A stretch of DNA of 64,000 bases from Pseudomonadota bacterium. GTDB taxonomy: Bacteria > Pseudomonadota > Gammaproteobacteria > Steroidobacterales > Steroidobacteraceae. Positions 17,753-51,662 of the stretch are shown here, piece after piece. The position numbers were made by a program, and so were the translations under genes. Below the pieces are notes generated by a model. It was not told the origin of the DNA. It saw nothing but the letters and a program-made list of their open reading frames with translations, and ran no database searches. The stretch is from positions 57,483 through 121,482 of the forward strand of contig JANXQL010000007.1 of NCBI GenBank assembly GCA_025356815.1, in the 5' to 3' direction. The first letter of the stretch is position 1. The number at the start of each line of letters is the position of its first letter.

Positions 17753-19054
17753 CTACTTGCCGAGCCGGCGGGCTAGGGTGCGAAAGCGCTGCAGGTTGAA
17801 GCGATCGTCGCTCGCGAGACTCGCGAACAGCTCCTCGATCGCCGGCGACTGCGTCGTCTGGCCGCTGTGCGCGAGCAGCACGACGATGCCCATCGCAACC
17901 TGCTCGGCACCAGCATAGTCCGGGTACTCGCCTCGACCCGCAGCGGCGGCGAGTCGCTCGGCTAGCCGACGGGCTTCTGCGGTCGACAGCACCGGCGGCG
18001 CCCCTGCGATCCGCTCAAGAGTCGCATCCAATGCCTTGGCCGCGGCACGAACCGCTTCCCAGTCCCGCCCGGGCGCGAGCTGCAGTTCGTGCACCTGGCG
18101 CAGCAACACGACCGCGTCGGCGGATGCGCGAACCGCGACGCTCGCGGCGATCAGTCTGAGCGCAGCGTCGTCGAAGTGCAGCTCGCCGACACCGCCACTG
18201 GGCGTCGGCCGCCGCTCGGCCCAGCGGGCGAGACCCATGCCTCGGTGGCAGGAGTAGCAGTTGAACAGGGTGAACTCCGGCAGCAGTGCGTTGCCGCGGG
18301 CGCCTTCCGGTGTCAGTAGCAGCAGCTGGCGTCGCGTCTGCGCGATGAGCCCGACAAGCCAGACATCGGCCGGCGGCGCCACGGTCTTGCGCTCGCGGTA
18401 AGCCGCATCCTGCGGGTAGTGCTCGCGGCCGCCGCTGGTCCTCCAGATTTCCGTGTAGGTATCCAGCTCGAACACCAGTCGCGGGTGGCCGGCCGCCATC
18501 ATGCGATGGTTGGCGAGTCGGTCGGCGGCCCCGACATGGCAGTCGAGGCAGACCTGTGCGCGCACAGCGGGGTCGTTCTGCGCCCGCATGCCGGCAGACA
18601 GATTGTCCGTATGCTTGACGCGCGGCGTGTCGTAGTGACTCGCGATCCAGTGCTCCGACGCCCCGTGGCAGCTCTCGCAACCGACGCCGTCGTCTGCCTG
18701 GAACAAAGGTCCGCGCGTGCGCGCCTGTGGCGCCTCGCTGTGGCAGGCGAGGCACTCCCGGGCGGACGTCGCCTCGTCGATCTCGAGGCGGCGCGCGATC
18801 TGGCGCCCGCGCGGTCCGTCGAGCGCGGCGTAGGCTCCGGCGTGCGGATCGAAATGCTGCCAGTTGACGTATTCGTTCTGTGCCACGGGCGTCGCGGTGC
18901 GCGCCTTCGCCGAGCCATGGCAGGTCGTGCTGGCGCAGCTGGCAACGCCCAGATGCCGCGGCTCCGCGGTGCCGGGCCCCGCCATCGCGAGCGCCACCCA
19001 GCCGAACGCCGCGATCGGCAGCAGCCGGCCGAACGGGTGAGTGAGCCGCTTCAC
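17753..19054 (-). CDS. Secreted multiheme cytochrome c (four CXXCH plus one CX4CH)
   Basis: CASTTCH (CX4CH), CLACH, CESCH, CLDCH, CYSCH; signal peptide VKRLTHPFGRLLPIAAFGWVALAMAGPGTA; GTG start overlaps preceding stop. Confidence 0.85.
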   Translation of the reverse strand: MKRLTHPFGRLLPIAAFGWVALAMAGPGTAEPRHLGVASCASTTCHGSAKARTATPVAQNEYVNWQHFDPHAGAYAALDGPRGRQIARRLEIDEATSARECLACHSEAPQARTRGPLFQADDGVGCESCHGASEHWIASHYDTPRVKHTDNLSAGMRAQNDPAVRAQVCLDCHVGAADRLANHRMMAAGHPRLVFELDTYTEIWRTSGGREHYPQDAAYRERKTVAPPADVWLVGLIAQTRRQLLLLTPEGARGNALLPEFTLFNCYSCHRGMGLARWAERRPTPSGGVGELHFDDAALRLIAASVAVRASADAVVLLRQVHELQLAPGRDWEAVRAAAKALDATLERIAGAPPVLSTAEARRLAERLAAAAGRGEYPDYAGAEQVAMGIVVLLAHSGQTTQSPAIEELFASLASDDRFNLQRFRTLARRLGK

Positions 19055-22000
19055 CTTTGCTCCTTGTGCGGCGGCTCGTCGACGACGAACCACGGCGTCC
19101 TGCGCCCATCCAGGTACATGCGCTGCATTTCCTCGAGCGTCAACGGACGCGATCCGCGGCGGCCGAAAACCGCGACCTGCCCACCGCTCTCATCCACCGC
19201 CCGGTCACGCTCCAGCGGTCGCGACAGCGACAGTGCCGGGGATGCCGTCGGGTAGGTCGCGATCCACTGCGGATGGGGATCAGGCGCAAACCCGTAAAAA
19301 TCGGGCTGCGTGTCGGGAGCGATCAGTTGCAGCACCTTCAGTCCACCCGCCCCGTCGGCGACGTAAGCAAACAAGGACGCGTTGGTCGCGGCGACGACGA
19401 CGTCACGCGTGTCGGCGAGCCGGCCGTCAGCGTTGAAGATCGACTGCAGCCGCGGACGCTCCGGCACTGTCACGTCGACCACCGCGAGGCCGTCACGCCC
19501 GTCGGCGACCCAGGCGTAGGTGCGAGATACGAACAGCTTGTGCGCATCCGTCAGCGAGACGCGTGCGCCCGGTACGAGCAGGGGACTCTCCGGGTCGGTC
19601 ACGTCAATGACCGCAAGGCCGGCCCGATCAGTCACAAACAGGTACCGGAACTGCAGCATTGCGGCGCGCGCGTCGTCCAGCGGAATGGTGGCGAGCACCC
19701 GCGGCGCCTTCGCGTCAGTGAAGTCCGCGACCACCAGTCCCACGTCCGCCAGGATGTACACGTAGCGGCCGCCGATCACCACGGAGCGGGCGCCCCTGAG
19801 CAGCCCATCCGGGTTCCAGGTCAGCGCCCGGGTTAGGCGGTTATTCCTGAAGTCCCCATCCAGGAGCGTGTCGATGTCGACTAGCACCAGCCCCTCGACG
19901 CGGTCGGTCACGAACGCGTAACGGTACACGTCAAGGAACGGCTGCTCGAGGTTGTCATGGCGCATCAGCTCGCCCTGATTACGCGATGGACGCACCGGTT
20001 GGGTCGTCGCAAGCACCACGCAGCTCGCGTCGCGGGTCGACACATGCGTGTCGTGCCCGAGTGGCGAGAATGGGCCGGTGAGGATCCGCTCGCTGACGCC
20101 CTTGTTGGCGATGCTCGCCACGTCGTAGACGCGCAGACCCTTGGCGCCCTCGGCGACGTACAGGTACTCGCCGCGCTGCTGCACGCAGCTGGCCGGTCCT
20201 GATGAGTGCCCGGAGGCGGACGCAAGCTTGCGGCCACGCGCCAGGTGCAGGGCGTAGTAGTCGGGGTAGGCATAGCGATGCAGGTAGCTGCCGATGACGG
20301 CCTGCGGCTCCTCCCACTCGGTGACCTGCACCGCGTCGATCGCACGCTCCGTGCCCACATAGGCATTCAGTCCCAGGAAGTTGATGTACTGCGTCCCTTG
20401 GCCGAGCGTCTGGGCCATCACCGCGTTGTTGTCGCCCGCGGCGGCGAGGTGGCAGTCGGTGCAGGTCTTGGTCTCGGTCTTGCGCTCGGTGTGCGGGTAA
20501 TGCGGATTCATCGCCTGCGAGCTGTAGCCGGATGCCGCGATCGGCGGCTGCTGCACGTAGATATGCTCGCGGTTGGCGTTGGTGGAGGAGAGCACGAGCG
20601 CCGAGGAGGAGCGCACCGGGGCGATCTTGCCGTTCTCGACCGGCCCGCGGCGACCGAGCAGGAACACGTCATCGCGCGCGACCTGCGGGTTGTAGGTCGC
20701 GTAGTTGCGTGCCGACCCGCCCTCGAAGCGATGCTTGTCAGTCTTCCAGTTGGCTTCGATTGGCAGGTGGCAGCCGCCGCAGCTGGTCGTCCACGACGTA
20801 TGGCACGTGTAGCACTCCATGCTGTCGTCGCTGTGCGCGAGTTCTGGCCAGCGTACGTCGGTTCCCCAGTGCTGGGCGGCAGGGTCCCGCGCCATCAGCT
20901 TGGCTCGCGCCGCGCGCTCGTTGTAGCGGGGGTTCCCCGGCGTCACGGAATCCTTCACCAGCGAAACCACCCATTCCCTGGACGGCTCGACTGCCGAGCG
21001 CTGAATCAGCTGTCCGCCGCGCCACTCGAACCGCAGCCGGCCATCGGGATTGCGGATGGTCGCGAGGTCCGTGCCATTGGGACTCGCCGCGGGACCCGAC
21101 GTACGCAGCGTTGGATAGGACCGCACTGTGCCGTGACAGTCCTTGCAGTCGATCTCGACCGCCTGCGCCACCTCGCCCTGCAGGTGCCCGGTCCCGTGCG
21201 CGTCCTGGGCGTAGTGGCAGTCCACGCAGTGCATGCCGACGTCGACGTGCACCGAGGCCATGTGCACTGTCTTCGCCCACTTGTCCGGGTCGTCGTTCGC
21301 GACGATCGCGCCGGCCTTGTCGAGCAGGTGCCCCTTGCGATCGCGCTTGTATACGCCGCGAAAGTTCCAGCCGTGGCCGTGATAGTCGGCGAACTGGGTG
21401 TCATGCAGTCCGGGATTGAGGTCCGCGACCTTGCGGGTGAAATCCAGATCAGCCCAGTTGCCGCGCGGCGCCGCTCCTTCGGGATTGCGGTCGAGGACGC
21501 GTCGCGCCTCTTCCGCCGTCGGATAGCGCTGCTTGGCCGGCCACATGGCCGGCGCGTCGGCTTCGTAGTCCCACATCGTGTAGCCGTAGAACGTGTTCAT
21601 GAACATGTTCGGCTGGTGCATGTGGCAGATCATGCACTGGCTGGACGGGATGCTGCGGGTGAACGCGTGGCGCAGCGGATGGCCGGGTTCATTTCGCGGA
21701 ATCACCGGATCGATCTGCTGGGAAGTGCCGTCGTGCCCGAAGCGTGCGTACGGACCTGAATGCGCCTCGTCGCGGTCGTTCGCATACACGACGTGGCAGC
21801 CGCTGCAGCCCGAGGACCGGTAGTCGCCAGGCTGGTCGTTGGTGCCAAGAAACCAGCCGAGTGGGTCGTTCAGGCGGGTCTTGTGGATATTGAGGACAGG
21901 CACCGCAATACGCGCGCCGGTCCCGGGACCCCGCGACGACTGGTGAAAATCAGGGCGGCCGGGCTCCTCCAGCCGCTGTAGCGACCCTGCGACGTTCGGC

Positions 22001-22830
22001 AGGCCCGTCTCCGCAAACACGTTGGATACGTTGCGCCCACCGTCCTCGAAGACGCGGAAGATGTCGGCCGGCGCCAGTGTCTCGTAGGCAGGTAGCGGAT
22101 AGAGGCGTGGTATGACGCCGTGCCGCTCCGCCTCGGCAGCGGCGAGCGGCGGGCCGTCGATGACCGCGGGCTTGCCCTCGCGCGTATAGCCTTCGCCGAC
22201 CAGGTAGTGCTTGAACGGCAGGATTCCGTTGTTGTAGGCGGCACCGCCCCAGAACATCGCATTGGTAGACATCAGGCTGCGCTCTGCCGCCTCGATGACC
22301 CTGACGTGACAGGCACCGCAGGCCTCGCGAGCGATGCGGAAGTCCCCGGGGTTGCGAAAGCGGATGTATTCCGGCGCTTCGTGGTTGAGCAGCGTGTAGC
22401 TGCGCTGTGGGTTCGCGCTCGACGGAAAGCCCCAGCGGCCCGGAAAGCGTGGCAGCACATGCGCCCGGTCACGCACCTCGCCATAGTGAGCGTCGTGAGC
22501 ATCGTTCGCACCGATCCAGCGCACGCTGGCGTCGCCACCGTGACAGTCGATGCAACCGAGCACGACGGACGCGGACACGTGCATGGATGCCGCATCGCTG
22601 GCCGTATGGCATGACAGGCAGCCAAGGCTCTTGGCGTCGGCCTGCTGCTGCGCCTGGCTGTAAGGCGCCGGCGGTGCCGTGACCCAGTGACGCTCGACAG
22701 GCCGCTCCTCGTCACTGCCGGGAGTCACCGCGTGGGCGATGGCGACCAGGGCGAGGAGACCGACCGGCAGTCGCCGGCCGATGCTGCGTCCAAACATGCG
22801 AAGGGCTGAGGTCTGGGGGCGAGGATGCAT
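19051..22830 (-). CDS. Large secreted decaheme cytochrome c with C-terminal LVIVD-type beta-propeller
   Basis: Ten CXXCH motifs (CLSCH, CIDCH, CGACH, CSGCH, CMICH, CVDCH, CKDCH, CYTCH, CGGCH, CTDCH) then repeats YLYVAEGAKGLRVYDV, YAFVTDRVEGLVLVDI, YVYILADVGLVVADFTD, YLFVTDRAGLAVIDVTD, YAWVADGRDGLAVVDV, FAYVADGAGGLKVLQL. Confidence 0.87.
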   Translation of the reverse strand: MHPRPQTSALRMFGRSIGRRLPVGLLALVAIAHAVTPGSDEERPVERHWVTAPPAPYSQAQQQADAKSLGCLSCHTASDAASMHVSASVVLGCIDCHGGDASVRWIGANDAHDAHYGEVRDRAHVLPRFPGRWGFPSSANPQRSYTLLNHEAPEYIRFRNPGDFRIAREACGACHVRVIEAAERSLMSTNAMFWGGAAYNNGILPFKHYLVGEGYTREGKPAVIDGPPLAAAEAERHGVIPRLYPLPAYETLAPADIFRVFEDGGRNVSNVFAETGLPNVAGSLQRLEEPGRPDFHQSSRGPGTGARIAVPVLNIHKTRLNDPLGWFLGTNDQPGDYRSSGCSGCHVVYANDRDEAHSGPYARFGHDGTSQQIDPVIPRNEPGHPLRHAFTRSIPSSQCMICHMHQPNMFMNTFYGYTMWDYEADAPAMWPAKQRYPTAEEARRVLDRNPEGAAPRGNWADLDFTRKVADLNPGLHDTQFADYHGHGWNFRGVYKRDRKGHLLDKAGAIVANDDPDKWAKTVHMASVHVDVGMHCVDCHYAQDAHGTGHLQGEVAQAVEIDCKDCHGTVRSYPTLRTSGPAASPNGTDLATIRNPDGRLRFEWRGGQLIQRSAVEPSREWVVSLVKDSVTPGNPRYNERAARAKLMARDPAAQHWGTDVRWPELAHSDDSMECYTCHTSWTTSCGGCHLPIEANWKTDKHRFEGGSARNYATYNPQVARDDVFLLGRRGPVENGKIAPVRSSSALVLSSTNANREHIYVQQPPIAASGYSSQAMNPHYPHTERKTETKTCTDCHLAAAGDNNAVMAQTLGQGTQYINFLGLNAYVGTERAIDAVQVTEWEEPQAVIGSYLHRYAYPDYYALHLARGRKLASASGHSSGPASCVQQRGEYLYVAEGAKGLRVYDVASIANKGVSERILTGPFSPLGHDTHVSTRDASCVVLATTQPVRPSRNQGELMRHDNLEQPFLDVYRYAFVTDRVEGLVLVDIDTLLDGDFRNNRLTRALTWNPDGLLRGARSVVIGGRYVYILADVGLVVADFTDAKAPRVLATIPLDDARAAMLQFRYLFVTDRAGLAVIDVTDPESPLLVPGARVSLTDAHKLFVSRTYAWVADGRDGLAVVDVTVPERPRLQSIFNADGRLADTRDVVVAATNASLFAYVADGAGGLKVLQLIAPDTQPDFYGFAPDPHPQWIATYPTASPALSLSRPLERDRAVDESGGQVAVFGRRGSRPLTLEEMQRMYLDGRRTPWFVVDEPPHKEQR

Positions 22831-22835
22831 GGGTC

Positions 22836-24635
22836 TTAGTAGGTCAGCACGAGGTTGGCGAGGACGACCCAGCCGGCGCGGTTGCCGTAGAGCGCCTTCC
22901 AGCCGGCACCGGGCACAAGGTAAGCCGCCGACATCCGCGCTACGATATTCTGGGTCGCGAGTGGCCGCCACGAGGCCGCGAGCGACAGGTCGAGCCCGAT
23001 CCGCCGCGGGATGGGCGCCTGCGCACGCGCAATTTCGAGCGAGGCAGTATTGCCGAAGCGCAGGTCGTTCGCGTTCGCGCTGACCCGCAGCTTCGGCGTG
23101 AGGTCTGCGTCTGCCCCGACGCCGGCCAGCACGAGGCCGGGATTGGTGAAATTCGACTGACCTGATTCCTTCGACGTGCGCAGCGAGGTGAGCAGGCCAT
23201 TGCGCCCGGAAAGTGAAACACGACCGCCCGCGACCAGCGGCACCGGCTCGCGAATCCAGAAGCTCGTATCGGCACCCGCGAACAGCGGGTTCTCGAGGAT
23301 CGCGTCGAAACCCGTCGCCGTGCCGTCAAGCGGGTTGCGATCGGCGCTTTGCACAGCAAGGGACGCGCGCACCCGCAGCCAGCTGAAGTCGCGCGACATC
23401 TCGGCCGCCCCGAAGTACGCGCGCACCCGGTCCGATGCATTGGTGAAGGTGCCGCGCGATTCCCGACCGACCACCCCATAAGTCGAGATGCTCAGGTTCA
23501 GCGGGCCAATGTGCCCGTCGCCGTTGTAGCCAAAATAGGTCACGTCGTAGTCGCGCCCACGACCATCGCCGAGGGATGCGGGTCGCTCGAGAACTCCATT
23601 GATGTCATAGGCGCGCTGCGCACCCTCGCGATTGCGATTGTGGACGATGACCCCCTGCGAGGTGAACCCCGGTCGCGGCAGGTCCTGCACGTAGAGATTC
23701 GCCAGCAGCACCTCGTCGTGACGGATCGCCGCGCCGCCATGACGGAATACGTCATTGAGCCCGGAATTGACGTCCTTATCGAGCCTGCGGAACCAGCCGA
23801 GATTGTACTGGTAGCGGTTATTGTCGCGGATGCCGAACAGCCGCACGCCCAGCGGCGCATCGTTGAACAGGAAGCCGCGAAAGTCCGCCGTCATCGGCTG
23901 GATACCGACCCGGAGGCTGTCGAAGTCGTAACGGCTGGAGACGTTGCGCAGGTGCCGGTCCACGAATGCGGCCTGCAGGCCGAGCGTCGACCGTGTACGT
24001 GTGAGCGGCGCGGCCGCCACCGCGCCGAGAAACCCGCGCTCGGCCACTTCCACGTGGTTGACGCTCACCACCGGCTCCAGGCGAAACTCCCACTCGGGCG
24101 GCTTGAATACCGTGTCGCCCTTGTAGAGCACCGCCTCGAACGCAAGCGTCTGCGCATAGAGCTGGCTCGCGCCGTGGCCGAGCAGGTCGAGGCTCCCTGG
24201 ACGCTGCGTGACCGCGATGCCCACCGGCAAGGGGAAGCTGCGCGGCTCCGCGACCGTGTCCGACACCGCGGTCAGGCTCGTGAACCAGTCCTCGCCGAAT
24301 ACCGGCCGGTCGCCCTTGAGCCAGTTGTTGCCGTGGTACGGATCACGCAGGTTTTCCGGATAACCGAGCGTCGAGACGATCCGCCACCGGTCGGGCAGGC
24401 CGAGGAACCGGCCCGGCTCGGCCGCCCGTGGTGGCAACAGCGCGCCGGGATCGCAGGGCGTTGCCGCGAATGTCGGCAGCTCGTGCGCCTCCGGTGACTG
24501 CCGGCCGGGTTCCGCCGGTTGCTGCGGCGGACAGGGCCCGACCGGCGCCGGGTCGTCGGCCCGTGCGAACTGGGAACACAGCGCGAGCGACGCAACCGCG
24601 AGCAGGCAGGCGGCACGACGCGCGCTAGCGGCCAT
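22836..24635 (-). CDS. Outer-membrane beta-barrel (porin-like) protein
   Basis: Signal peptide AACLLAVASLALCSQFARA, alternating amphipathic strands throughout, C-terminal aromatic strand WVVLANLVLTY; lies between multiheme cytochrome genes. Confidence 0.7.
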   Translation of the reverse strand: MAASARRAACLLAVASLALCSQFARADDPAPVGPCPPQQPAEPGRQSPEAHELPTFAATPCDPGALLPPRAAEPGRFLGLPDRWRIVSTLGYPENLRDPYHGNNWLKGDRPVFGEDWFTSLTAVSDTVAEPRSFPLPVGIAVTQRPGSLDLLGHGASQLYAQTLAFEAVLYKGDTVFKPPEWEFRLEPVVSVNHVEVAERGFLGAVAAAPLTRTRSTLGLQAAFVDRHLRNVSSRYDFDSLRVGIQPMTADFRGFLFNDAPLGVRLFGIRDNNRYQYNLGWFRRLDKDVNSGLNDVFRHGGAAIRHDEVLLANLYVQDLPRPGFTSQGVIVHNRNREGAQRAYDINGVLERPASLGDGRGRDYDVTYFGYNGDGHIGPLNLSISTYGVVGRESRGTFTNASDRVRAYFGAAEMSRDFSWLRVRASLAVQSADRNPLDGTATGFDAILENPLFAGADTSFWIREPVPLVAGGRVSLSGRNGLLTSLRTSKESGQSNFTNPGLVLAGVGADADLTPKLRVSANANDLRFGNTASLEIARAQAPIPRRIGLDLSLAASWRPLATQNIVARMSAAYLVPGAGWKALYGNRAGWVVLANLVLTY

Positions 24636-26604
24636 TGCACGCGTCCTGCACGGTTGAGTCCAGGAACGGGGCCTGTGGGCAGCCGACATAGCGCAGGCGG
24701 GCCCCCTGGGGAGACAATAGGTCACTACGCAGCGCGACAGGCGCGTTACCGAAGCCGCCGAGACGCCGGGCAGCCCCGTCGACGCCCAGTAGCGCGATCA
24801 TGTCATCCTGGTCGACGCCGTCGCCGGAGACGCCGATCGCACCCACCAGCGTCTGGCCGCGATAGATCGGCACGCCGCCGGGGAACACCTGCGCGCCATT
24901 GGCGAGTCCCGCGATCGGCGCCTGCGTCGCAAAGCCAGCGTCGAAGCCACTGACACCCGTGCAGTTCCGGCCCACGTCGGGCGCCGCGCCAAGCACGAAG
25001 CCGACATGCTGGATCAGCGCGTTGTAGACGAGGTCAAGCCCAAAGCCGGTGTTGAACGGGCTCCAGGCGGCGATCGGCGTCGACAGCGGCCCCGGAGGCG
25101 CCGCATCCGTTCCATCGGGATAGAAAGGCCGCGACAGGTTGCCGATCGCGCGCGAACTCCATGCGATCCCGCCATCACCTAGCGCGGCCGGAAGTCCGAG
25201 GAATGAGCGCGTCGCCGTCACGTAGTCGCCGAGCGGCACGTGCCGCAGCGCCGTAAGCCCACCGGCCAGGTGCACCGCGTCGGGCAAGGCCGTGAGCGCG
25301 GCGGCCGCGGCGCTGGAACTCATGAACGCGCTGGTACGGGCCTTCTGCACCGCCACGTCGATGCCAAACAGGGGAGGGTCGCGCGTCCCCGCGACACCAA
25401 GGATCACGCCCTGGCTGTCGACGATGCTGATCGTCACGCGAGCCTGGGAGCCCAGCGGCCGGCGTATCTGCGCGCGCGTGCGATTGGCGACACTCAGCGC
25501 CTCGCGGAGCATTTCGCGAACCTCGTTGGCGTCCAGCGCACCGATGAGCTCGGTGCCCGCCCGCGGCGGGTAGCGAGGCGTGTCGGTCGCATCGACCAGC
25601 ACGTACGCATCCAGTCCCGGGTAGTCGCTCGCGTCCGCTCGCAGGCCGGACGCCGACGTGCCGAACGCAAGTCCGCCGCGCGTCGCCGCCGGCGCATAGC
25701 CAGTCACCGCGACGAGCTGGCCCGCGACGCCGTCGATGCTGGCGAACGCGGGGGCGCTTGTTGGCAACGTGAGCAGGGACGCCGCGGTCGCGTCGGCGAA
25801 GCGCAGCGTCTTCCCGTCGACCGTGAGGTGATCGGCGCGCCGATCCTCGGGCGCGGCAAGTCCGTAGGTTGCCGCCGTTGCGATCTGCTCGTCCGGGTCG
25901 TGGTCGACATCGAAGATGTTGCGATCGATCCCGTAGATTCCGTCGGCGACGACGCCAACGCCGCCCACCGGCGTGCCGCCCACGTACAGAGGCAGGCCGC
26001 CCGGATCGGCGGCAAGACCCAGCGGCGAGCGGCCGGGCCCCGGTCCGGGGAGAGCAGCGGCACGGCCGTTAACGTCCGAGCAAGGCAACTGGCTGAACTG
26101 CACGCCATACAGAGGCCCGCTCGGCGTGGAGGATTCTCCGGGGTTGAAGTGCTCCTGCACGATCTGGCCCGCGGTGCGAGTCGAGAACGCATTGCCTTCG
26201 GTCGACAGGTACGCCGCCGTCAGCGCCTTGGCGACGGCGGCGAGCGCGTCGGGGACGATCACGACGTTCTCGAGCCCACCGCTGGCAAGCCTGGAGCGGA
26301 TCGTGGTGGTCGTGGCGGCGCCGTTCATGCGGAACACGCCGAGCACGTTGCCAACACGGTCGACGACCGCGACCGTCGCCGGCAGGTGCCGCGCCTGTGC
26401 CTCGGCAACCGCCTGCGCGATGACCCGCTCGACGTCAGCCTGCGTGAGCGATGTGAATGCCGAGGCGCACTGTCCGGTGCAGACGGCGCCGGAGGGTGAT
26501 GGGGTCGACGGTACGCCGGAGGACATCGGGTTGCCGCCACCGCAGGCCGTCACCACCAGGGCCATCGTCGCCGCGAGCACGCCTGCTGGTGGTAGATGCG
26601 TCAC
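24625..26604 (-). CDS. Lipoprotein with two GlcG/HbpS-like (heme-binding) domains
   Basis: Lipobox LVVTAC; two copies of the ...ARVxISIVDxxGxVLGVFR... pattern (LTQADVERVIAQAVAEAQARHLPATVAVVDRVGNVLGVFRMNG and LREALSVANRTRAQIRRPLGSQARVTISIVDSQGVILGVAG), each followed by a FPGGVPIYRGQTLVGAIGVSGDG-type segment. Confidence 0.72.
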   Translation of the reverse strand: MTHLPPAGVLAATMALVVTACGGGNPMSSGVPSTPSPSGAVCTGQCASAFTSLTQADVERVIAQAVAEAQARHLPATVAVVDRVGNVLGVFRMNGAATTTTIRSRLASGGLENVVIVPDALAAVAKALTAAYLSTEGNAFSTRTAGQIVQEHFNPGESSTPSGPLYGVQFSQLPCSDVNGRAAALPGPGPGRSPLGLAADPGGLPLYVGGTPVGGVGVVADGIYGIDRNIFDVDHDPDEQIATAATYGLAAPEDRRADHLTVDGKTLRFADATAASLLTLPTSAPAFASIDGVAGQLVAVTGYAPAATRGGLAFGTSASGLRADASDYPGLDAYVLVDATDTPRYPPRAGTELIGALDANEVREMLREALSVANRTRAQIRRPLGSQARVTISIVDSQGVILGVAGTRDPPLFGIDVAVQKARTSAFMSSSAAAAALTALPDAVHLAGGLTALRHVPLGDYVTATRSFLGLPAALGDGGIAWSSRAIGNLSRPFYPDGTDAAPPGPLSTPIAAWSPFNTGFGLDLVYNALIQHVGFVLGAAPDVGRNCTGVSGFDAGFATQAPIAGLANGAQVFPGGVPIYRGQTLVGAIGVSGDGVDQDDMIALLGVDGAARRLGGFGNAPVALRSDLLSPQGARLRYVGCPQAPFLDSTVQDACNGR

Positions 26605-28307
26605 GGCGCCCGTCCCGGCGCCGCGGGCGGCACGACCCAGCGGCCGCGCCGACTGTCGTGAAAGACGTGGCAGGCGGGGCAGCCGCTCGCCACCTTGCCG
26701 CTCGTGCTCGACGCAGAGCCTGCGTGGCAGCGCTGGCACGACTCGATGCCCGGCATCAGTACATCATCGGCCTGCGTCGAGCGCTGCGCTGCGTGGCAGC
26801 GGGTGCAGGCCGTCAGGGTCGTGCCGTGGCGGGAATGATCGAAGCTCGCCGCCGGGAACCAGGCCTGCGCGAGGTGCACCGGCGTCACTTCCCACGGAAC
26901 GACGGCGTCCGGCGTCTGGCGCACCTCATGGCAGACGCTGCAGGCGCGACGTGCGAACAGGTCGCGTGCGACGATCTGGGTCCTCGCCTTCGCGATGCCG
27001 AGCCTGCGCTCACGCTCCGCGGCAGCCAGCGCCGGTCCCGGCGTGGCCGTGAAACGCACGCCCGGACCGCGCGCGGCGGGGTCCGGCCAGCCCTCCAGGT
27101 AACGTGCGCTGTAGTACTCGAGCAGCGTGTTCAGCACGCCTGCCACGTCACCGTGTGGCAGCTGGCGGTCGGGGAACGCCGGATCGAAGTCGAGCCGGTG
27201 ACAACCCTGGCAGTGCTCGGTCATCACGATCGGCTGCATCCGGGCACCCCCAGGCTGCGGCCGATGGCAGTCGCCACAGCCGAGCACGCGCGTCCCATCC
27301 TGTGTCTTCAGTCCGCGTGGGTCGAGGTGCTGCGCGTGCCCGAACTTCAGGTGAGACTTCTCGCGCAGCGTCGGCGAGTCGACCGGGACGCGCCGCAGCC
27401 TGTCGGCGTCGCCAGAGGCGCCTTCGACCTGCAGCGTCACGCGGAACTGCGGATGGCGCGTGCCGAAATCGGTCGCATCGCCCGTCGTGGAGCGTCCGGC
27501 CGTCACCGCTTTGAGGTCCGCATGGCACGGCGTGCACAACGCATCGTCGCGCCGGGTCAACAGAGCCGGCTCGTGACTTGAATGGCAACGCTCGCATCGC
27601 GCGCTGTCCGGATCAGCACCGACCGCGATCCCGGGCGACGCGTGGCGGTGCAGAGCCGGGCCATGGCAGGCGAGGCATGCCTGATTCTCGACTCGCACGA
27701 ACGGTCGCTGGTGACAGGCGTCGCAGCGCCCGCCGATCGTCCGGTGCGCCTCGTGCAGCGCGCCGGTCGACCACGCATGGTCGCACGGCAGCGGCCCGGC
27801 ACGTAGCCCTTCGAGGCTGGCCTTGCCCGACAGCATCACGAACGGCACGACCAGGAACGCCGCGAGGATCCCAAGGAACAGCAGCCACGACCAGCCACGC
27901 TTGCCCAACCGAACCGACCGCAGCCGCAGGCGCGGATCGACCGCCTCGACATCGCTGCCGGCCACGGAGGGATCGAGCTCGAAGGTCAACGCGACGTCGA
28001 TGCCCGCGGGCGGGGCGACGATCGTGAGGATGTTGGCGCCGAGCCGGAGGACGTCGCCGAGGCTGAGTTCCACGTCGCGGACCAGCGCCTCGTTGATGAC
28101 AATCGTCGCGGGCGAGCGGCAACTGAGGACGATGCGCTCGTCGCGCCGGTAGACGCGCGCGTGCTGGAACGCTACCCGCCGATCCTTGAACTGCAGCACC
28201 TGGTCGGTTGCGCGGCCGAGCGTGAGGGCATCGCCCTCGAACACGCGCTCGCGCGTCTCGATCGCGCCACCGGGCGCGCGCGTCAGAAACCGAATGAGGG
28301 CGCGCAT
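26601..28307 (-). CDS. Inner-membrane decaheme cytochrome c with N-terminal FHA-like domain
   Basis: N-term LTLGRATDQVLQFKDRRVAFQHARV...LSLGDVLRLGANILTIV (FHA-like), one TM (WSWLLFLGILAAFLVVPFVML), then ten CXXCH (CDACH, CLACH, CERCH, CTPCH, CGDCH, CQGCH, CSVCH, CTRCH, CQRCH, CPACH). Confidence 0.82.
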   Translation of the reverse strand: MRALIRFLTRAPGGAIETRERVFEGDALTLGRATDQVLQFKDRRVAFQHARVYRRDERIVLSCRSPATIVINEALVRDVELSLGDVLRLGANILTIVAPPAGIDVALTFELDPSVAGSDVEAVDPRLRLRSVRLGKRGWSWLLFLGILAAFLVVPFVMLSGKASLEGLRAGPLPCDHAWSTGALHEAHRTIGGRCDACHQRPFVRVENQACLACHGPALHRHASPGIAVGADPDSARCERCHSSHEPALLTRRDDALCTPCHADLKAVTAGRSTTGDATDFGTRHPQFRVTLQVEGASGDADRLRRVPVDSPTLREKSHLKFGHAQHLDPRGLKTQDGTRVLGCGDCHRPQPGGARMQPIVMTEHCQGCHRLDFDPAFPDRQLPHGDVAGVLNTLLEYYSARYLEGWPDPAARGPGVRFTATPGPALAAAERERRLGIAKARTQIVARDLFARRACSVCHEVRQTPDAVVPWEVTPVHLAQAWFPAASFDHSRHGTTLTACTRCHAAQRSTQADDVLMPGIESCQRCHAGSASSTSGKVASGCPACHVFHDSRRGRWVVPPAAPGRAP

Positions 28308-28317
28308 CGCTAGCCCC

Positions 28318-29208
28318 TCACCAGTAGATGAACACGCTCGCGACGTGCGCGAGCAGGGCAGCGAGCAGGCCGAAGGACAGCGGCACGTGCAGGTATAACC
28401 AGGCGTCGAGCCACGCCTGGAAGCGCAGGTCGCGCTTGAGCCGCTCGAGCGCTCCGCGCTTGGCGCTGGTCAGTGTCAGCAGCTCCTGCACGCGCGCGGA
28501 CAGCTCGCCGTCCTCGCTGCGCGCGAGTCGGTCGCCGAGCCAGGCGAGCAGCGTCGCCTGGTAGGGGTTGGACAGCGGGCCGCTGCTTCCGCCGGCGCGC
28601 GGCAGCACGACGCTCGAGCCGTCCCGGCCCGCCAGCAGGTCAAACGCGCTGCCACCGAGTATCAGCCGGTCGCGCGCACTGCGCATGGCGTCGTCGAACT
28701 CAGCCGGAAGCGCCTGCGCCACGCGCACGGCGCGCGCGTCGAGGTCGGCGATCTCCTCGACCAGCTGTTGGCGCGTGCGTCCCTGCCGGTTGGCGCTCAT
28801 CCGTTCCGGGTAGCGGGCATAGAGCACGACGCCGACGATGCCAAGGACCACGACGGCGCAGGTGAGCGCATACGCGAGCGTATGGACGTTCCAGCCGAAG
28901 CGGAAGCCCGCGTGAAGCGTCGCCACCGGCACGACGGCAAGCCCCAGATAGACGTGCGCCGACACCCAGCCGCGTACGGTTCCCAGCTTCGACGCGTAGC
29001 TGCGCTTGCGGGCGCCTAGTGCCAGCAGCCACAGGATCAGCAGTGCTGCGAGGGTGCCGAGCGTGTAGCCCAGCCAGGTTCCACCGCCCGGCAGGCCGGT
29101 CGGAGCCTGCCAGCCGTACAGGCCGAACATGGCCACCACCACGCCCACCGCCAGCCAAAGGTAGCGGCGCCCCATCTGACCAAGCACGGACTCGTGGACG
29201 CTACTCAT
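28318..29208 (-). CDS. Integral membrane b-type cytochrome-like protein
   Basis: About five TM helices with intramembrane histidines (SAHVYLGLAVVPVATLHAGF, NVHTLAYALTC, YLHVPLSFGLLAALLAHVAS) and a soluble insertion; between FeS-flavoprotein and cytochrome genes. Confidence 0.6.
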   Translation of the reverse strand: MSSVHESVLGQMGRRYLWLAVGVVVAMFGLYGWQAPTGLPGGGTWLGYTLGTLAALLILWLLALGARKRSYASKLGTVRGWVSAHVYLGLAVVPVATLHAGFRFGWNVHTLAYALTCAVVVLGIVGVVLYARYPERMSANRQGRTRQQLVEEIADLDARAVRVAQALPAEFDDAMRSARDRLILGGSAFDLLAGRDGSSVVLPRAGGSSGPLSNPYQATLLAWLGDRLARSEDGELSARVQELLTLTSAKRGALERLKRDLRFQAWLDAWLYLHVPLSFGLLAALLAHVASVFIYW

Positions 29209-31663
29209 CGCTGCTCCGGGCGAGGTCCACGAAGCGATCCGGACTGATCCTGATCGCCGCCCCGGTGGGACAGGCACGCACGCAGGCGGGGCCACCCCCG
29301 AGGTCCTTGCACATGTCGCACTTGACGGCCTTCTTGGTAGCCCCCGATAGCGGCGCCTGCTGCTCCGCGGCACCCGGCCCCGGCCCGCGGCCGAGCAACA
29401 GCCAGGACAGCAGGCCGGGCTTGGCTTGCTGCGGCTGCGCCATCTGGATCACGCCGTAGGGGCAGTTGCGCTCGCAGTTGCCGCAGCCGATGCAGTTGTC
29501 GCCGATGTAGACCTCGCCGCCCGCCGTGCGCCTGATCGCATCGGGCGGACAGTCGGTCATGCAGTGGGGGTCCTCGCAGTGGCGGCACGAGGTTGGCACG
29601 TGCAGGCGCGCGAACGTCGGCCCGGCCTCCCGGTCGAGGCGCGACGTGCCATCGTGGGTCTCGGCGCAGGCCTTCTCGCAGTTGTCGCAGCCAATGCACA
29701 GCGCCTCGTCGATCAGCAGCACATCCGTGGCTTCACCCAGGCCCTGCTGCATCAGGAACGAAATCACATCACCCGCGCGGGTCTGACCTTGCATCCGCGC
29801 GTTTGACGCCAGACGGTCGCGCATCGTTGCCTGGATCTGGTCGCGCAGGGCGGCATTACGGGCCAGCAGCGTGGCGAATGCCGCGGCGTCGATACTGACA
29901 GTCTCGGTCGCGACATTGGCGCGGACCGTCGCCGAGCGTCCGGTCCGACCGATGAGTCCCATCTCGCCGACGTAGTTGCCGGCCGCGACGTAGGAGGTGA
30001 CCACGTCGCGCCCGCCGAGGCGGCGCAGCACTGCAACCGAGCCGCTGCGCAACAGATGCAGGCAGTCGGCCGCGTCGCCTTCGACGAACAGCGCGTCATT
30101 CGGTCGGTAACGGTTGAGTTTTGCACCCGCGGCCACCGGCCGCAGCTCCTCGAAGCTTGCTTCCGGCGCGAAGCTGGACTGGATAGCGCGGATGATGAAC
30201 AGCTCGTCGATGCCGCGCTTGACGGCGCTCACCGAGCTCATCAGCTTCAGGATCTCCCGCCGCGGCGACTCAAGCACGACACAGCCGGGTCCCGCGATGG
30301 CCGTGCCCGAGCGGCGACGCCCGGACAGCAGGCTCATCTCGCCGAAGAACTGGCCTTCACCCAGCGTGATGCGATGGCGGCCGCCGTCACCGAGCTCCAT
30401 GCCGACGCTGCCTGCGATGATCGAGTAGAACGAGTTCGTGTAATCGTTCTTGCTGAACAGCACCGTGCCTACGGGCGAAGCGTGCAGCGCGCTGCCAAGC
30501 ACAAGTTCGCGCAGCACCAGCGGATTGACCTCGGCAAATAGCGGTACACGGCGCCTGATCAATGCCAGCGTGTCGGTCACCGGCAGCCCGAACGGCAGCG
30601 CCGAGAAGCTCTGCTCAAGGAGCGGCTCGTCGGCCGGTGCGACGGCGTGACCGAGGATAGTCTCGACCACCTCGTAGCCCTGGTTCATCGCCTGCTTGAT
30701 CAGCGGGTAGCCCGCGAGCGCGCCGATGACGTACAGGCCTGGTACGCTCGACTCATAGCGCTCGCTGAGCGTCGGCAGCGCTCCGGGCTCGGCGTTCGGG
30801 AAGCGTATCCCGGCCTCCTCGACGAACCGGCGCGGGGCAATTGCGCCAAGGCGGGCGATGATCCGGTCGGCGTCCACCTGCGCCTTGCCGGATTCGGTGG
30901 TGAGCGTCAGTCGGTAGGGCCGGCTGCCGCCCGGCGTCGCCTCGATGCGCTCGCAGGAGCTCTTGTAGAAGCAGTTGAGGGTGCCGGCCTCGATTGCCTT
31001 GACGACCTGGGTGAGGTTGCCTTCCTTGGCGCGCGAGAACTCCGCCGCCCGGTTGACGAGGTGCACTTGGTTGCGGCGGGTCAGCGCGAGCGCATTCTCG
31101 ATCGCAGCGTCACCCGCGCCCACTACGACGATCGATTCGCCGCGGTACTCGTCCGGATCGTCCAGCTGATACTGGATACACGGCAAGTCGTCGCCAGCAA
31201 CCCCGAGCCTGCGTGGATTGCCCTGCACTCCGATGGCGAGCACGACGTGCTCGGCACGCACCACTTCGCCATCGGCGAGGGTGATCTCGAACTCCGGGCG
31301 ATTGCCACGAATCGCACTGACCTCGGCGCCGTAGCGAACATTGACTCGGTGCTTGCCAAGCCCCTCGTGCCAACGCTCGAGCACGACCTCGCGGGTGGCT
31401 GCCTCGAAGGGCAGCGGGCTGCGCAGGGGCAGCACGGCGGGCTCCGCCATGACGTGCTTGCCCTTCTGGTATCGCTGGATCGTTGTCGCGTGCGCCGGAC
31501 CCGATTCGAGCAGCACGTGTGGGACACCGAGCGCGGCGGCGTGGGTCGCGGCCGACAGGCCGGCGGGCCCTGCGCCAATCACCGCGATCGTGTAGCGCCC
31601 GCTCACCGCCACGCGTACCTCACCGGCCGACCAGTGCCGCGGCGCCGGACACCACGCCCGCAC
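29201..31663 (-). CDS. FAD/NAD(P)-dependent oxidoreductase fused to two cNMP-binding domains and a four-cluster 4Fe-4S ferredoxin module (start uncertain; GTG near 31618 likely)
   Basis: YTIAVIGAGPAGLSAATHAA and SIVVVGAGDAAIEN Rossmann motifs; two CAP_ED-like segments (GEGQFFGEMSLLSGRRRSGTA; AGNYVGEMGLIGRTGRSATV); CIGCDNCEKAC, CRHCEDPHCMTDCP, CIGCGNCERNCP, CDMCKDLGGGPACVRACP. Confidence 0.85.
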   Translation of the reverse strand: MRAWCPAPRHWSAGEVRVAVSGRYTIAVIGAGPAGLSAATHAAALGVPHVLLESGPAHATTIQRYQKGKHVMAEPAVLPLRSPLPFEAATREVVLERWHEGLGKHRVNVRYGAEVSAIRGNRPEFEITLADGEVVRAEHVVLAIGVQGNPRRLGVAGDDLPCIQYQLDDPDEYRGESIVVVGAGDAAIENALALTRRNQVHLVNRAAEFSRAKEGNLTQVVKAIEAGTLNCFYKSSCERIEATPGGSRPYRLTLTTESGKAQVDADRIIARLGAIAPRRFVEEAGIRFPNAEPGALPTLSERYESSVPGLYVIGALAGYPLIKQAMNQGYEVVETILGHAVAPADEPLLEQSFSALPFGLPVTDTLALIRRRVPLFAEVNPLVLRELVLGSALHASPVGTVLFSKNDYTNSFYSIIAGSVGMELGDGGRHRITLGEGQFFGEMSLLSGRRRSGTAIAGPGCVVLESPRREILKLMSSVSAVKRGIDELFIIRAIQSSFAPEASFEELRPVAAGAKLNRYRPNDALFVEGDAADCLHLLRSGSVAVLRRLGGRDVVTSYVAAGNYVGEMGLIGRTGRSATVRANVATETVSIDAAAFATLLARNAALRDQIQATMRDRLASNARMQGQTRAGDVISFLMQQGLGEATDVLLIDEALCIGCDNCEKACAETHDGTSRLDREAGPTFARLHVPTSCRHCEDPHCMTDCPPDAIRRTAGGEVYIGDNCIGCGNCERNCPYGVIQMAQPQQAKPGLLSWLLLGRGPGPGAAEQQAPLSGATKKAVKCDMCKDLGGGPACVRACPTGAAIRISPDRFVDLARSSDE

Positions 31664-34016
31664 CCGGGGCTGCGAGGAAGTAAGTCATGCCGACGCCGCC
31701 AGGCGCGCCACTGATCTGGCCGGGGAGGTTAGTGAAGAAGCCGTTGAACTGGCCACTACCCGCGGCCTGCGCCACACCGCCGATCGTCAGCGCGTTGAAG
31801 GCCCCCGCAAACTGCTGCGCGGGTAGGTTGCCGGACGCGCCGATGGAGCCCGTGCCCTGCGCGAGCCACGCGGTGTTCGAAATCGTCAGCGCTACATCCG
31901 CGGTGACGCTGTTCTTGGAGAAGTCGGCCGCGAGCGTAAGGCTGCCGAGGGTGCCCACGTTACCCACCGCATCCGTGGGCTGCGTGCCCCCGATCACATC
32001 GTAGGTCCGCGAGCCTGTGATCGGCATCACCGGCGGTGCCGCGCCGAAGTCGCCGGGCAGTATCCAATGCAGGCTGCGGTTGGCAAGGTCCACGTTCGTG
32101 ACGCCAGCGGCGGCCGAGGAGATCTGTACCGTGCCGCCGCTCCACCGCCCCCAGCGAAGCATTGTCGCCGGATCGGTGCCGGCCTCGGCAACGCTTGCGG
32201 TGCCAATCGAGACGGTCGCGCCGACGCTGCCGAACTGCACCGGATCGACGCCGACGCCGGCGGGGCCCTGCAGCTTGAACTGGCCCGCGGCGCTGGTCGC
32301 GACGCCGACCTGACCAGCTTCGCCGTTGCCGAGATCGTTGCTGAATGCGAGTGCAATGTCGCGTGCGCCAAGTGGTGGCGGCGAGGGTGGTAGGGCGGCG
32401 GCATTGGGCGCAAGGGCGACGACGCCCTCGACGCGATTCGCAGCGCTGCCAACGGCAAGTGCATAGCTCATCGCGATCACCGGCAGCGCCGCGGTGGCGT
32501 CGGCGGAGGGCGTGAACACCAGGCTAAACGGGCCGTACGTCAACGGCGCGACGTTCGCGACCGAGCCCAGGAACGTGCCCTGGACGGCGAGGTTGGCCTG
32601 GATGGGCTGGCTGGTCGCTGTGCCGTACCAGTCAAGATTTCCGATCTGCAGCGCGATGACCGCGTCAATGGTGCGCGCGGTGAAGTTCGCATTCAGCCAC
32701 GCACCGCCGAACTTGCCAACCAGGCCAGCCGAGTCGGTCGGCGAGGTCGCGCCCACGACGCCGTAGCTGGCACTCCCGGAGATCGGCAGCACCGGCGGCT
32801 GCGACGCGAGATAGCCCGCGCCCGCTATCCAATGGACGCTGCTGGCGCCGAGCGGCAGCGCGACCACGCTGCCGGCAGTGTCGACCAGATCGACGCTGCC
32901 GCCGCTCCAGCGACCCCAGCTGAGGCCGGTCCTGGCGTCGACGCCGGTATCGCTTGCAAGCGCGGTGCCGATGCGCAGCGACTCGCTGCCGAGGTCGCCT
33001 GTGACCGGGAACAGGCTGGCGCTGCCGCCGGCCGTACTAAATCCGTAACGGGTGTCCGAGGCCGCGGTCGCGCCTGGACTGATCATCGTGCGCAACGGCG
33101 GTCCGACGTAGGCTGATCCACGCCCCTTGGGCAGGCGGCCCGGCGTGAGGTCAACCGGCCGGCCGTTGGCGTCACCCCCGACCGGCAGCACCGTGTTGGT
33201 CGCCGGCGGCGCCGTGCCCGGCGCCGGGGCGGCCGGTACGCTCACCTCGCGGGTAATGGCGCCCTTGCTTGCGGCGCCGCCCTGACTGCCCGGCGATACG
33301 CCGCGCAAGGTCAGTGGACCCGCACCGTCGCCTTGCGTCGGCAGCGGCGGCTCGCGCTGTGGCTCCGGCTTGAGAGTCGGGACCGGGATGAAGAGGAACT
33401 CGCCCGCCGCCAGCGCAAGGTCCAGACCACTGCCGCGGAACACGATGCTGCCACTGTAGACGCCCAGATACAGTCCATCGCGCACCGGTTCGCCCGGCTT
33501 GAGGCCCGGTGCATCGCTGCAGTCACCTCGACAGAACACCGCCACGTAGTCGGTACCGCGGATGCCAAGCGTGCCGATCGGCACGCGAACCTCATACGCC
33601 GCCGGATCGCCCTTGCCGACGCTACCGGATGTCGTGTGGAAGCCCCCCTTGAGCAGGGTGCTGATGCTGCGCCCGGTGGAGGCGGCCACGGCGGCGCTGC
33701 CAGGGTCGCGCACGCCGGCGCCAAGCTCGAAGGACTCCACCCGAAAGCGCGAACCGGCTCGCAACGCTACACGCGCGCCGTCACCCATCAGCAGCTGGGC
33801 GCGCGACGCTGCACCGGTCACGACGGTATCACCGACGTTGACCGGATCGCCGGCTCGCAGCGGCCGGCTGCTGGCCTCGATGGTGACAGTACCGGACACG
33901 AAGATAGCCTTGCCGGCCTGCGCCGCGACCGCGAGCGGGCTTGCGAGCGAGAGCACCAGCCCGAGCAGCAGTGCCAGGCTGTGCCGGCTCTGGAGGTACC
34001 GAAGAGGGATGTGCAT
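31620..34016 (-). CDS. FecR-domain secreted protein with two tandem TbpB-like beta-barrel repeats
   Basis: FecR segment GKAIFVSGTVTIEASSRPLRAGDPVNVGDTVVTGAASRAQLLMGDGARVALRAGS; repeats SGSASYGVVGATSPTDSAGLVGKFGGAWLNANFTARTIDAVIAL and TGSRTYDVIGGTQPTDAVGNVGTLGSLTLAADFSKNSVTADVAL. Confidence 0.75.
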   Translation of the reverse strand: MHIPLRYLQSRHSLALLLGLVLSLASPLAVAAQAGKAIFVSGTVTIEASSRPLRAGDPVNVGDTVVTGAASRAQLLMGDGARVALRAGSRFRVESFELGAGVRDPGSAAVAASTGRSISTLLKGGFHTTSGSVGKGDPAAYEVRVPIGTLGIRGTDYVAVFCRGDCSDAPGLKPGEPVRDGLYLGVYSGSIVFRGSGLDLALAAGEFLFIPVPTLKPEPQREPPLPTQGDGAGPLTLRGVSPGSQGGAASKGAITREVSVPAAPAPGTAPPATNTVLPVGGDANGRPVDLTPGRLPKGRGSAYVGPPLRTMISPGATAASDTRYGFSTAGGSASLFPVTGDLGSESLRIGTALASDTGVDARTGLSWGRWSGGSVDLVDTAGSVVALPLGASSVHWIAGAGYLASQPPVLPISGSASYGVVGATSPTDSAGLVGKFGGAWLNANFTARTIDAVIALQIGNLDWYGTATSQPIQANLAVQGTFLGSVANVAPLTYGPFSLVFTPSADATAALPVIAMSYALAVGSAANRVEGVVALAPNAAALPPSPPPLGARDIALAFSNDLGNGEAGQVGVATSAAGQFKLQGPAGVGVDPVQFGSVGATVSIGTASVAEAGTDPATMLRWGRWSGGTVQISSAAAGVTNVDLANRSLHWILPGDFGAAPPVMPITGSRTYDVIGGTQPTDAVGNVGTLGSLTLAADFSKNSVTADVALTISNTAWLAQGTGSIGASGNLPAQQFAGAFNALTIGGVAQAAGSGQFNGFFTNLPGQISGAPGGVGMTYFLAAPGAGVVSGAAALVGR

Positions 34017-34036
34017 AAATTCTCCCGGTCCGCTGG

Positions 34037-35380
34037 CTAGCGGAAGTTCCGATGCAGAAACAGACCGGCTTCCCAACGGTCGTACGCGTACAGCGCTACG
34101 TTGGTCGAATTCTTGACGTAGCGCAGCCGCGGCTCGAGGCGCCAGCCCGGCGCCGGCGCGTCGTCAAAATCGAGTAGTGCCACCGCGTAGTACTGAGTAT
34201 CCCGACGGTCGAGGCCAAAGAAACCACTGCCCCCGGAGTAATTGCTGCGCATTGCGCCTATGTCGATCATGGCGCGGCTCGCGTGACCCGCGCGCCAGCC
34301 AAAGGACGTGCGCGCGCCGATCCGGTCGTTGCCATACGGCGAACCGACCCGACAGGCATCATCACCGCCGCCGATCAAGGCGAAGGAAAAAGCGCCTTCC
34401 GCAGGCAGGCCGGTTCGATCGACGCGCAGGCTCGCGAGCAGCCGGTTGACCTCGAGCAGGTCCAGATGCGCATCGACGTAGCGCATGGGCCCGTAGCTTA
34501 CATCCACGCTCGCCTGCCACGGCCCGCTGAGCGCGTGGGTGGCGCGCAATTCAAGCGCGCCGCTCGTGTCGTGGGAAGCGCCCGACAGGGCGCTCCAGCC
34601 GCCGTTAACACCGATCGAGGTCCGCCATCCGCCGAGCCTTGCCGCGAGCCCCACGGCAGCCGATACCAGCGACTGGTCGACGAAGTGCGCCTCGGGGTTC
34701 CAGCGCTGCGTGGCGCGACCGCTGACGGTCCACGCAACGTTGGCGCCCGATGGATGAATGTAGTCCGCCGCCAGCGCCGCTTCGACAAACGCGGTGGCGG
34801 TGGCGACATTGCGCGTATTGAGGTTGAAGCCCAGGAATTGCTTGTCCGACGTCGAGCCGTTGGCGTTGGAATCATAGCCGGCGCCGAGGTCAAACCCTGC
34901 GACAAACCTCGGCCGCACATCGGCGACGCGGCTGTCGATCGCGACGAGGTAACGGTCGATCAACTGGCGGGTAGCGGTCGGTGGATCGCGCCCGCGCAGG
35001 TATTCGAACTGCACGCGGGCTGACTCGAGGTCACCGCTGTCGTAGTAGGCCCGTGCCAGGTCCATGCGTGCGCCATCGAAGCCCGGCTCCACCGCCACGA
35101 CCCGTTGCAGCGCGAATGCGGCGTCCGCCGGGCGGCCCGTGTCGAGCGCCGCGAGTCCATACGCATAATCGAAGGCAGCCGTGCCGCCGAAGTCGGCCTC
35201 ACGTCGAGAGAGGACGTCGTAGGCTTCGCCGGCCTTGCCCGCCGCGATGAGCGGCCGCACGGCATCCAGCAGCACCGCGAGCGAGTCGGCGTCCGCGGCC
35301 GTGGCGACGACGGATTGGCCCGCGACGATCGCGACCGCGGCGATTACCGCGCCAAGACGCGCAAAACGCGACGGCCGCAT
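34037..35380 (-). CDS. TPR plus outer-membrane beta-barrel protein, Slam/T11SS (DUF560)-like
   Basis: N-terminal TPR-like helices (AFALQRVVAVEPGFDGARMDLARAYYDSGDLESARVQFEYL) followed by beta-strand-rich C-terminus ending NVALYAYDRWEAGLFLHRNFR. Confidence 0.65.
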   Translation of the reverse strand: MRPSRFARLGAVIAAVAIVAGQSVVATAADADSLAVLLDAVRPLIAAGKAGEAYDVLSRREADFGGTAAFDYAYGLAALDTGRPADAAFALQRVVAVEPGFDGARMDLARAYYDSGDLESARVQFEYLRGRDPPTATRQLIDRYLVAIDSRVADVRPRFVAGFDLGAGYDSNANGSTSDKQFLGFNLNTRNVATATAFVEAALAADYIHPSGANVAWTVSGRATQRWNPEAHFVDQSLVSAAVGLAARLGGWRTSIGVNGGWSALSGASHDTSGALELRATHALSGPWQASVDVSYGPMRYVDAHLDLLEVNRLLASLRVDRTGLPAEGAFSFALIGGGDDACRVGSPYGNDRIGARTSFGWRAGHASRAMIDIGAMRSNYSGGSGFFGLDRRDTQYYAVALLDFDDAPAPGWRLEPRLRYVKNSTNVALYAYDRWEAGLFLHRNFR

Positions 35381-35521
35381 CGAGCCCCCTTCATGGTCCA
35401 TTCCGAAGCGTTACAGCGGCTCACTACGGAACAACCGCATTGATTCCGCTGGCATTTTGCGCATCTTGCGCCAGCGAATGCGGCACCGCAACCGGCTCCG
35501 GTGCTTTGACGGTACGCGCGG

Positions 35522-48121: not shown

Positions 48122-48760
48122 TCAAAGCGGCACGATACCCTCTCGCACCGCGTATTTGGTCAGTTCCGCGATCGTGCGCAGCCCAAGCTTGCGCATGATG
48201 TTGCGCCTGTGCACCTCGATGGTCGCCACCGTCACGTGCAACTGCTGTGCGATCGCCGCCGAGCGACCGCCCTCGGCGATCAACCGCAGCACCTCGAGTT
48301 CGCGCGGCGCAAGCCGGGGCGCATCATCGGCCGCGGCTCCGTCGCGCATGTCGGCGGCGAGGGCGCCCGCAATTTCCGGCGAGAAGTACCCATGGCCCGC
48401 GGCCACGGCTCGAATGGCAAGCACAAGCTCAGTGCCGGCCGCAGCCTTGGTGACGTAGGCGAGCGCGCCGGCGCGCACCATCGCCGTGATGAACCGCTTG
48501 TCGGAAAATGCCGAAAGTGCCACGATTTTCGCCGGATGGCCTTCCTCATGCAGCCGCGTTGCGACCTCGATGCCGTTCTGGTCCGGCAGACCGATATCGA
48601 GCACGAGCACATCCGGCCAGAGCCGCGCCGTCATTTCGAGCGCCTCTGCTGCCGTCCCCGCCTCGCCGACGACCTCAATGTCCTCGACCCGAGTCAGAAC
48701 CTCGCACAGCGCCTCTCGAACCATCCGGTGGTCATCCGCAAGCACGACTCGGGTAGTCAT
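48122..48760 (-). CDS. NarL/FixJ-family response regulator with LuxR-type HTH
   Basis: VVLADDHRMVREAL, VLVLDIGLPDQNGIEV, LAPRELEVLRLIAEGGRSAAIAQQLHVTVATIEVHRRNIMRKLGLRT. Confidence 0.93.
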   Translation of the reverse strand: MTTRVVLADDHRMVREALCEVLTRVEDIEVVGEAGTAAEALEMTARLWPDVLVLDIGLPDQNGIEVATRLHEEGHPAKIVALSAFSDKRFITAMVRAGALAYVTKAAAGTELVLAIRAVAAGHGYFSPEIAGALAADMRDGAAADDAPRLAPRELEVLRLIAEGGRSAAIAQQLHVTVATIEVHRRNIMRKLGLRTIAELTKYAVREGIVPL

Positions 48761-51036: not shown

Positions 51037-51662
51037 GCGGGCACCCGGCACAACCAGCGCTCGAGGGCCTCGAAGGTCGCGACCGCGGCGTTCTCCGCGG
51101 ACTTGCGTCGTACGCCGTCATGGCACCAGGCGTCCACCGCCGCACCGAAGCGCACCCACATGGAACTCACCGCATCGCCATAGCTGGCAAGGAATGCTGC
51201 ACCGCGCAGCGGTACCAGGCCGAGGCGCGACTCAACGACTGGGAGCAGCGTCCTTCCACCGAGGCTCGCGCCTTCGAGCACATAGATGCAGCCAAACGCC
51301 GCAGCGGTTGTCGATAGATCGGGCAGATCGGGACAGCGCGGCAGGTCCGAGATGGCGGCAGCGGAGAGTCCGAGGGCCTCCAGGTCCTGCGCCAGCAGCG
51401 AGAGCTTACGGCGAGACGCGTAGTCCGGCAGCGCTTCGCCGAAAGTGTCGACGGTAAGATACGACTCGATCGCCGCGCAGAAGCCCCAAAGGTTCTCCAT
51501 GTGCGCCCGATAGCCGATCAGTGTCGTGAAGCGGGACTTCACATCGATTCGCTTTTCCAGTCGCTGGTGGCTCGGCCAGGTGGCGGCACGCAGTGAAAGC
51601 ACCGCGCTCGGCAAGGCCACAGGCTCTGTGGGCATCACGGTTGCGGTTCGGTCGGGGGTCAT
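51033..51662 (-). CDS. Biliverdin-producing heme oxygenase (BphO-type)
   Basis: LRAATWPSHQRLEKRIDV (proximal His), YVLEGASLGGRTLLPVVESRLG; ATGA-type overlap with the phytochrome gene. Confidence 0.85.
   Translation of the reverse strand: MTPDRTATVMPTEPVALPSAVLSLRAATWPSHQRLEKRIDVKSRFTTLIGYRAHMENLWGFCAAIESYLTVDTFGEALPDYASRRKLSLLAQDLEALGLSAAAISDLPRCPDLPDLSTTAAAFGCIYVLEGASLGGRTLLPVVESRLGLVPLRGAAFLASYGDAVSSMWVRFGAAVDAWCHDGVRRKSAENAAVATFEALERWLCRVPA

Follow-up and report, generated by a model that had tools for sequence, protein, structure and literature searches.

Among solved structures, the FHA domain described here is closest, by profile as well as by fold, to those of GarA and OdhI, the regulators of actinobacterial 2-oxoglutarate dehydrogenase. 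It is with the tips of its sheets that the FHA domain of these regulators binds the dehydrogenase (PMC10415282), and a second study describes OdhI as inhibiting in its unphosphorylated form (PMC9769921). Both are soluble and keep the phosphothreonine site, whereas in the present protein the FHA domain is fused to a transmembrane decaheme cytochrome and the Ser and Asn of the site are lost. The inner-membrane proteins YscD and PrgH of the T3SS likewise place a cytoplasmic FHA fold before one transmembrane helix and have lost the phosphothreonine site. The present protein differs from them in scoring below the Pfam cut-off for Yop-YscD_cpl (28.1 bits, cut-off 33.2) and in having a multiheme cytochrome as its periplasmic part. 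A third comparison is offered by the MtrA/DmsE-type cytochromes of porin-cytochrome conduits. These are decaheme too, and the heme domain gives a weak profile match over about 63 residues to 6r2q chain A, which we take to be MtrA of the MtrCAB structure although the PDB list carries another name, as well as weak matches to other multiheme cytochromes. Unlike them, the protein has its anchor in the inner membrane and carries an FHA domain on the cytoplasmic side. It falls far below the cut-off of the DmsE/MtrA decaheme family (TIGR03508, 21.6 bits against 192.2), and the barrel of its cluster models as AlgE-like rather than MtrB-like.

In a literature search on FHA domains with multiheme, decaheme or c-type cytochromes, with most subscription papers and preprints outside its coverage, a single relevant paper was found. 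Its Table 1 lists, in a row under 'Other', cluster 403, a 'Forkhead-associated protein' with 10 CXXCH motifs in 27 of 87 genomes of Gallionellaceae iron oxidisers, on which the main text is silent (PMC10734462). Compared by description only, cluster 403 very probably belongs to the same family as the protein reported here.

The window, that is, the whole stretch of 64,000 nucleotides that was analysed, encodes this protein within a group of redox and signalling genes (Table 1). As a membrane-bound module for electron transfer that ends in a multiheme cytochrome, the group belongs to a known type; what is unusual is the FHA anchor and the probable cyclic-nucleotide input.

Table 1. Features of the FHA-cytochrome locus, with positions in the window.
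Feature	Position	Strand	Basis or remark
FHA-TM-decaheme cytochrome c, 568 aa (main finding)	26601..28307	-	ATG start; begins ~10 bp past the upstream cytb gene
FHA domain, residues 1-111; degenerate phosphothreonine site (R32 kept, Ser->A46, Asn->A67)	27975..28307	-	Pfam, GarA alignment, AlphaFold, fold search
Single transmembrane helix, residues 136-160, N-in per positive-inside charges	27828..27902	-	Hydropathy, AlphaFold
Periplasmic decaheme domain, residues 170-568, ten CXXCH	26604..27800	-	Motif count; profile search
Membrane b-type cytochrome-like subunit (cytb), ~5 TM, conserved His 85/99/109/274/288	28318..29208	-	
Cytoplasmic flavoprotein: Pyr_redox (FAD/NAD(P)), two cyclic-nucleotide-binding (CNB) domains, 16 conserved Cys	29201..31663	-	
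FecR-domain protein (accessory)	31620..34076	-	Domain match; neighbourhood comparison
TPR protein (accessory)	34037..35401	-	Domain match; neighbourhood comparison
CHASE2 class III adenylate cyclase (accessory, part of family only)	35522..37729	-	
HbpS-like protein, conserved lipobox-type Cys	24625..26739	-	True start uncertain; listed GTG overlaps the cytochrome gene
Outer-membrane beta-barrel, predicted ~18 strands, AlgE-like fold, 46-74% identical across family	22836..24725	-	
Exported decaheme cytochrome, C-terminal LVIVD repeats	19051..22971	-	
Cytochrome c554-like, four CXXCH and a conserved CX4CH	17753..19093	-	

The preliminary description of the gene had named an FHA-like domain, one transmembrane helix and ten CXXCH motifs, and all three are borne out by Pfam, AlphaFold, hydropathy and motif count. 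The Pfam FHA match covers residues 29-90 (E=8.7e-7; 29.7 bits, cut-off 20.7) and recurs in all 45 relatives scanned, and the family profile from these 45 finds the FHA structures of GarA with E=9e-12. Residues 1-172 are modelled by AlphaFold as an FHA beta-sandwich with a pLDDT of about 97, followed by the helix at 136-160, and the top matches of this FHA model in a PDB fold search are FHA domains, with GarA, OdhI and FhaA closest. Hydropathy gives one clear hydrophobic segment, at about residues 141-160 (KD 2.68), with an Arg/Lys run at 127-137 on its N-terminal side and all ten CXXCH motifs (residues 195, 211, 238, 258, 344, 366, 456, 501, 524 and 543) C-terminal to it. Since heme attachment at CXXCH takes place outside the cytoplasm, these signals place the FHA domain in the cytoplasm, as had been supposed, and the hemes in the periplasm. 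Shuffling the residues of the protein over 2000 rounds yielded a maximum of 2 CXXCH motifs, compared with the real ten. The first alignment position is Met in 48 of 58 sequences, which confirms the start. A gene-prediction artefact, whether a chance FHA match or a wrong start, is ruled out by the full-length architecture being kept in dozens of genomes.

A single-protein search matched the decaheme protein in 8 of 60 close relatives. The wider search for the architecture that the preliminary description had suggested, run with a nine-sequence profile, found it in 51 of 397 genomes of the order, 16 of 369 of the class and 15 of 399 of the phylum, fractions that are rough because each set is a draw of genomes. 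The matches are almost always full-length, FHA domain included. Named carriers are one gammaproteobacterial MAG, the sole named relative in the contig scan, and twelve Sphingobium plasmids; Sphingobium is also an example of a culturable carrier. The flavoprotein is present in exactly the same eight of the 60 relatives, and the LVIVD cytochrome in these eight and one incomplete genome. The trio of flavoprotein, cytb and FHA-cytochrome is kept from the order of the window to other classes of the phylum, and on the Sphingobium plasmids. The decaheme FHA protein is a real, widely conserved member of an electron-transfer cluster, and a multi-gene redox system conserved over much of one large phylum is represented in the searched literature by one table row.

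Gene order was compared over 50 loci, a number that includes one genome twice (L009 and L099). The cytb gene lies directly upstream of the decaheme gene in 48 of them and the flavoprotein gene directly upstream of cytb in 45. The exceptions are both loci of genome G509, where cytb is preceded by the cyclase, TPR and FecR genes (which in L091 separate it from the flavoprotein gene), one locus at a contig end, and L095 and L117, in which BLAST nevertheless sees the genes. Counts for the other partners, bounded by the ends of the sequence stretches compared, are 42 for the HbpS-like protein, a putative lipoprotein, 41 for the outer-membrane barrel, 35 for the LVIVD cytochrome and 30 for the c554-like cytochrome; the cyclase, TPR and FecR genes accompany 15 of the 50 loci. 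G509 carries two copies of the cluster (L090 and L091), each with the cyclase-TPR-FecR genes in opposite orientation.

One further relative (L089:8926-10368, minus strand, genome G652) is a decaheme protein that lacks the FHA domain and whose cluster is complete in all other parts. A frameshift was considered as the cause and dismissed, as only about 20 bp separate the gene from cytb and its short N-terminus runs straight into the transmembrane helix. The heme-domain tree gives this relative no clear position, and it has likely lost the domain. Because its cluster is kept all the same, FHA docking is not indispensable.

The sixteen conserved Cys at the FeS end of the flavoprotein probably correspond to four 4Fe-4S clusters, and this part resembles HycB-type subunits. 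Its two CNB domains have intact phosphate cassettes (G-E...R-[ST]), with G, E and R kept in 45-47 of 47 relatives in both. The cyclase of the window has the residues expected for an adenylate cyclase, its Lys/Asp pair being assigned by us as such. On a Sphingobium plasmid, the gene directly past the cytochrome is annotated CpdA (cAMP phosphodiesterase), and on a second one a metallophosphoesterase is annotated past the cytochrome. Judged from these sequences, the visible signalling input of the cluster is a cyclic nucleotide.

On the exported side, the barrel has no sequence match in Pfam, NCBIfam or the PDB. When set against porin-cytochrome (Mtr/Pcc) systems, the cluster does have a linked barrel, which models as AlgE-like with about 18 strands; an MtrB-type porin was looked for and not found, MtrB being absent from the best 50 fold matches. 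Given this narrower barrel, the passage of electrons through the outer membrane is rated only as possible. The LVIVD decaheme cytochrome has no match in the PDB; it shows long conserved non-heme patches, and it could be an enzyme instead of a wire. The CX4CH motif of the c554-like cytochrome (C53, C58, H59) is conserved, and the protein is probably pentaheme across the whole family.

The phosphothreonine ligands of the FHA domain were read from the alignment to GarA, and a census was taken over the 45 relatives. In the SxxH motif, the Ser that binds the phosphate is replaced by Ala46 in the window protein and is kept in 2 of 45; the Asn of the NGT loop, Ala67 here, is Asn in 0 of 45; and the Arg, Ser and Asn ligands of a phosphothreonine-binding FHA domain occur together in none. 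A larger set (n=58) gave the same picture. The preliminary description had suggested phospho-dependent docking as a possible means of recruiting the flavo-FeS protein or a kinase substrate. Docking of the flavo-FeS protein is plausible, given its tight genomic link with the FHA-cytochrome, but the phospho-dependence is not supported.

We favour, with an about even chance of being right, a phosphorylation-independent FHA dock or assembly module in an inner-membrane redox complex controlled by cyclic nucleotide. The decaheme protein would be the cytochrome c subunit of this complex. A chain of electron exchange would connect cytoplasmic NAD(P)H with the flavoprotein (FAD and FeS centres), the membrane subunit (b-hemes) and the decaheme protein itself (ten c-hemes), and would continue to the remaining exported cytochromes encoded in the cluster. 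On the cytoplasmic face, the FHA domain would dock its partner independently of phosphothreonine; the likeliest partner would be the flavo-FeS subunit, or else the cyclic-nucleotide domains of this subunit, kept beside the membrane subunits in a manner comparable to the enzyme binding of GarA and OdhI. Control would be exerted by a cyclic nucleotide, probably cAMP, on the flavoprotein, and not by Ser/Thr phosphorylation. A point against this reading is that R32 and its surrounding loop are still among the most conserved positions, so that some anion or phospho binding may survive. We infer, rather than observe, the complex itself, the partner held by the FHA domain, the route and direction of the electrons, the terminal substrate and the control by cAMP. 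A more specific version, put forward tentatively, is that cAMP gates the electron flow, the flavo-FeS entry subunit docking on and undocking from the FHA domain and so switching NAD(P)H-linked exchange with periplasmic or extracellular partners at the level of the protein. If the CNB domains do gate electron entry, a second messenger would here switch a respiratory chain directly, and the FHA domain would be a signalling fold put to new use as a dock within a redox complex.

A pure assembly or oligomerisation scaffold, similar to YscD/PrgH and the T7SS, would pack copies of the protein or neighbouring subunits and have no regulatory role. This is possible, if doubtful. Yop-YscD_cpl is also matched by 45 of the 45 relatives scanned, which share the topology of a cytoplasmic FHA domain followed by one helix, the fold matches include 9qks, a core protein of the T7SS, and both the lost phosphothreonine site and the tolerated FHA-less relative fit such a role. 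However, the window protein itself lies under the YscD cut-off and over that for FHA, and the apex loop at residues 31-37 is better conserved than the domain on average (entropy 1.42, compared with 2.21). This suggests a conserved binding face, and with it a specific ligand.

The FHA domain could instead recognise another acidic or phosphorylated ligand, bound non-canonically by the GR arginine (R32, after Gly31) together with R44. No other loop of the domain is as conserved as the GRATDQ loop. R32 is kept in 40 of 45 relatives and R44 in 28, but the former is lost in 5 and the latter in 17, and we consider this reading improbable.

Least probable is canonical recognition, with the flavo-FeS protein or some other partner phosphorylated by a Ser/Thr kinase and then brought to the heme wire by the FHA domain. 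In its favour, the Pfam FHA score is above its cut-off, R32 and the SxxH His (H49, 42 of 45) are mostly retained and six Pkinase-family kinases exist elsewhere in the genome, all on contigs other than that of the window. It is rejected on the loss of Ser and Asn, on the FHA-less relative and on a search for the Pkinase family alone, which gave no match in six carrier genomes (G1140, G837, G1092, G1096, G958 and G1003) and, in agreement with the preliminary description, none in the window.

Other signalling genes lie further along the window. Two 400-residue proteins with the same EAL-HDOD architecture (52859-54061 and 57495-58697, both on the minus strand) possibly stem from a local duplication, and a phytochrome-type histidine kinase with the architecture PAS_2-GAF-PHY-HisKA_3 is encoded at 48757-51051 on the minus strand.
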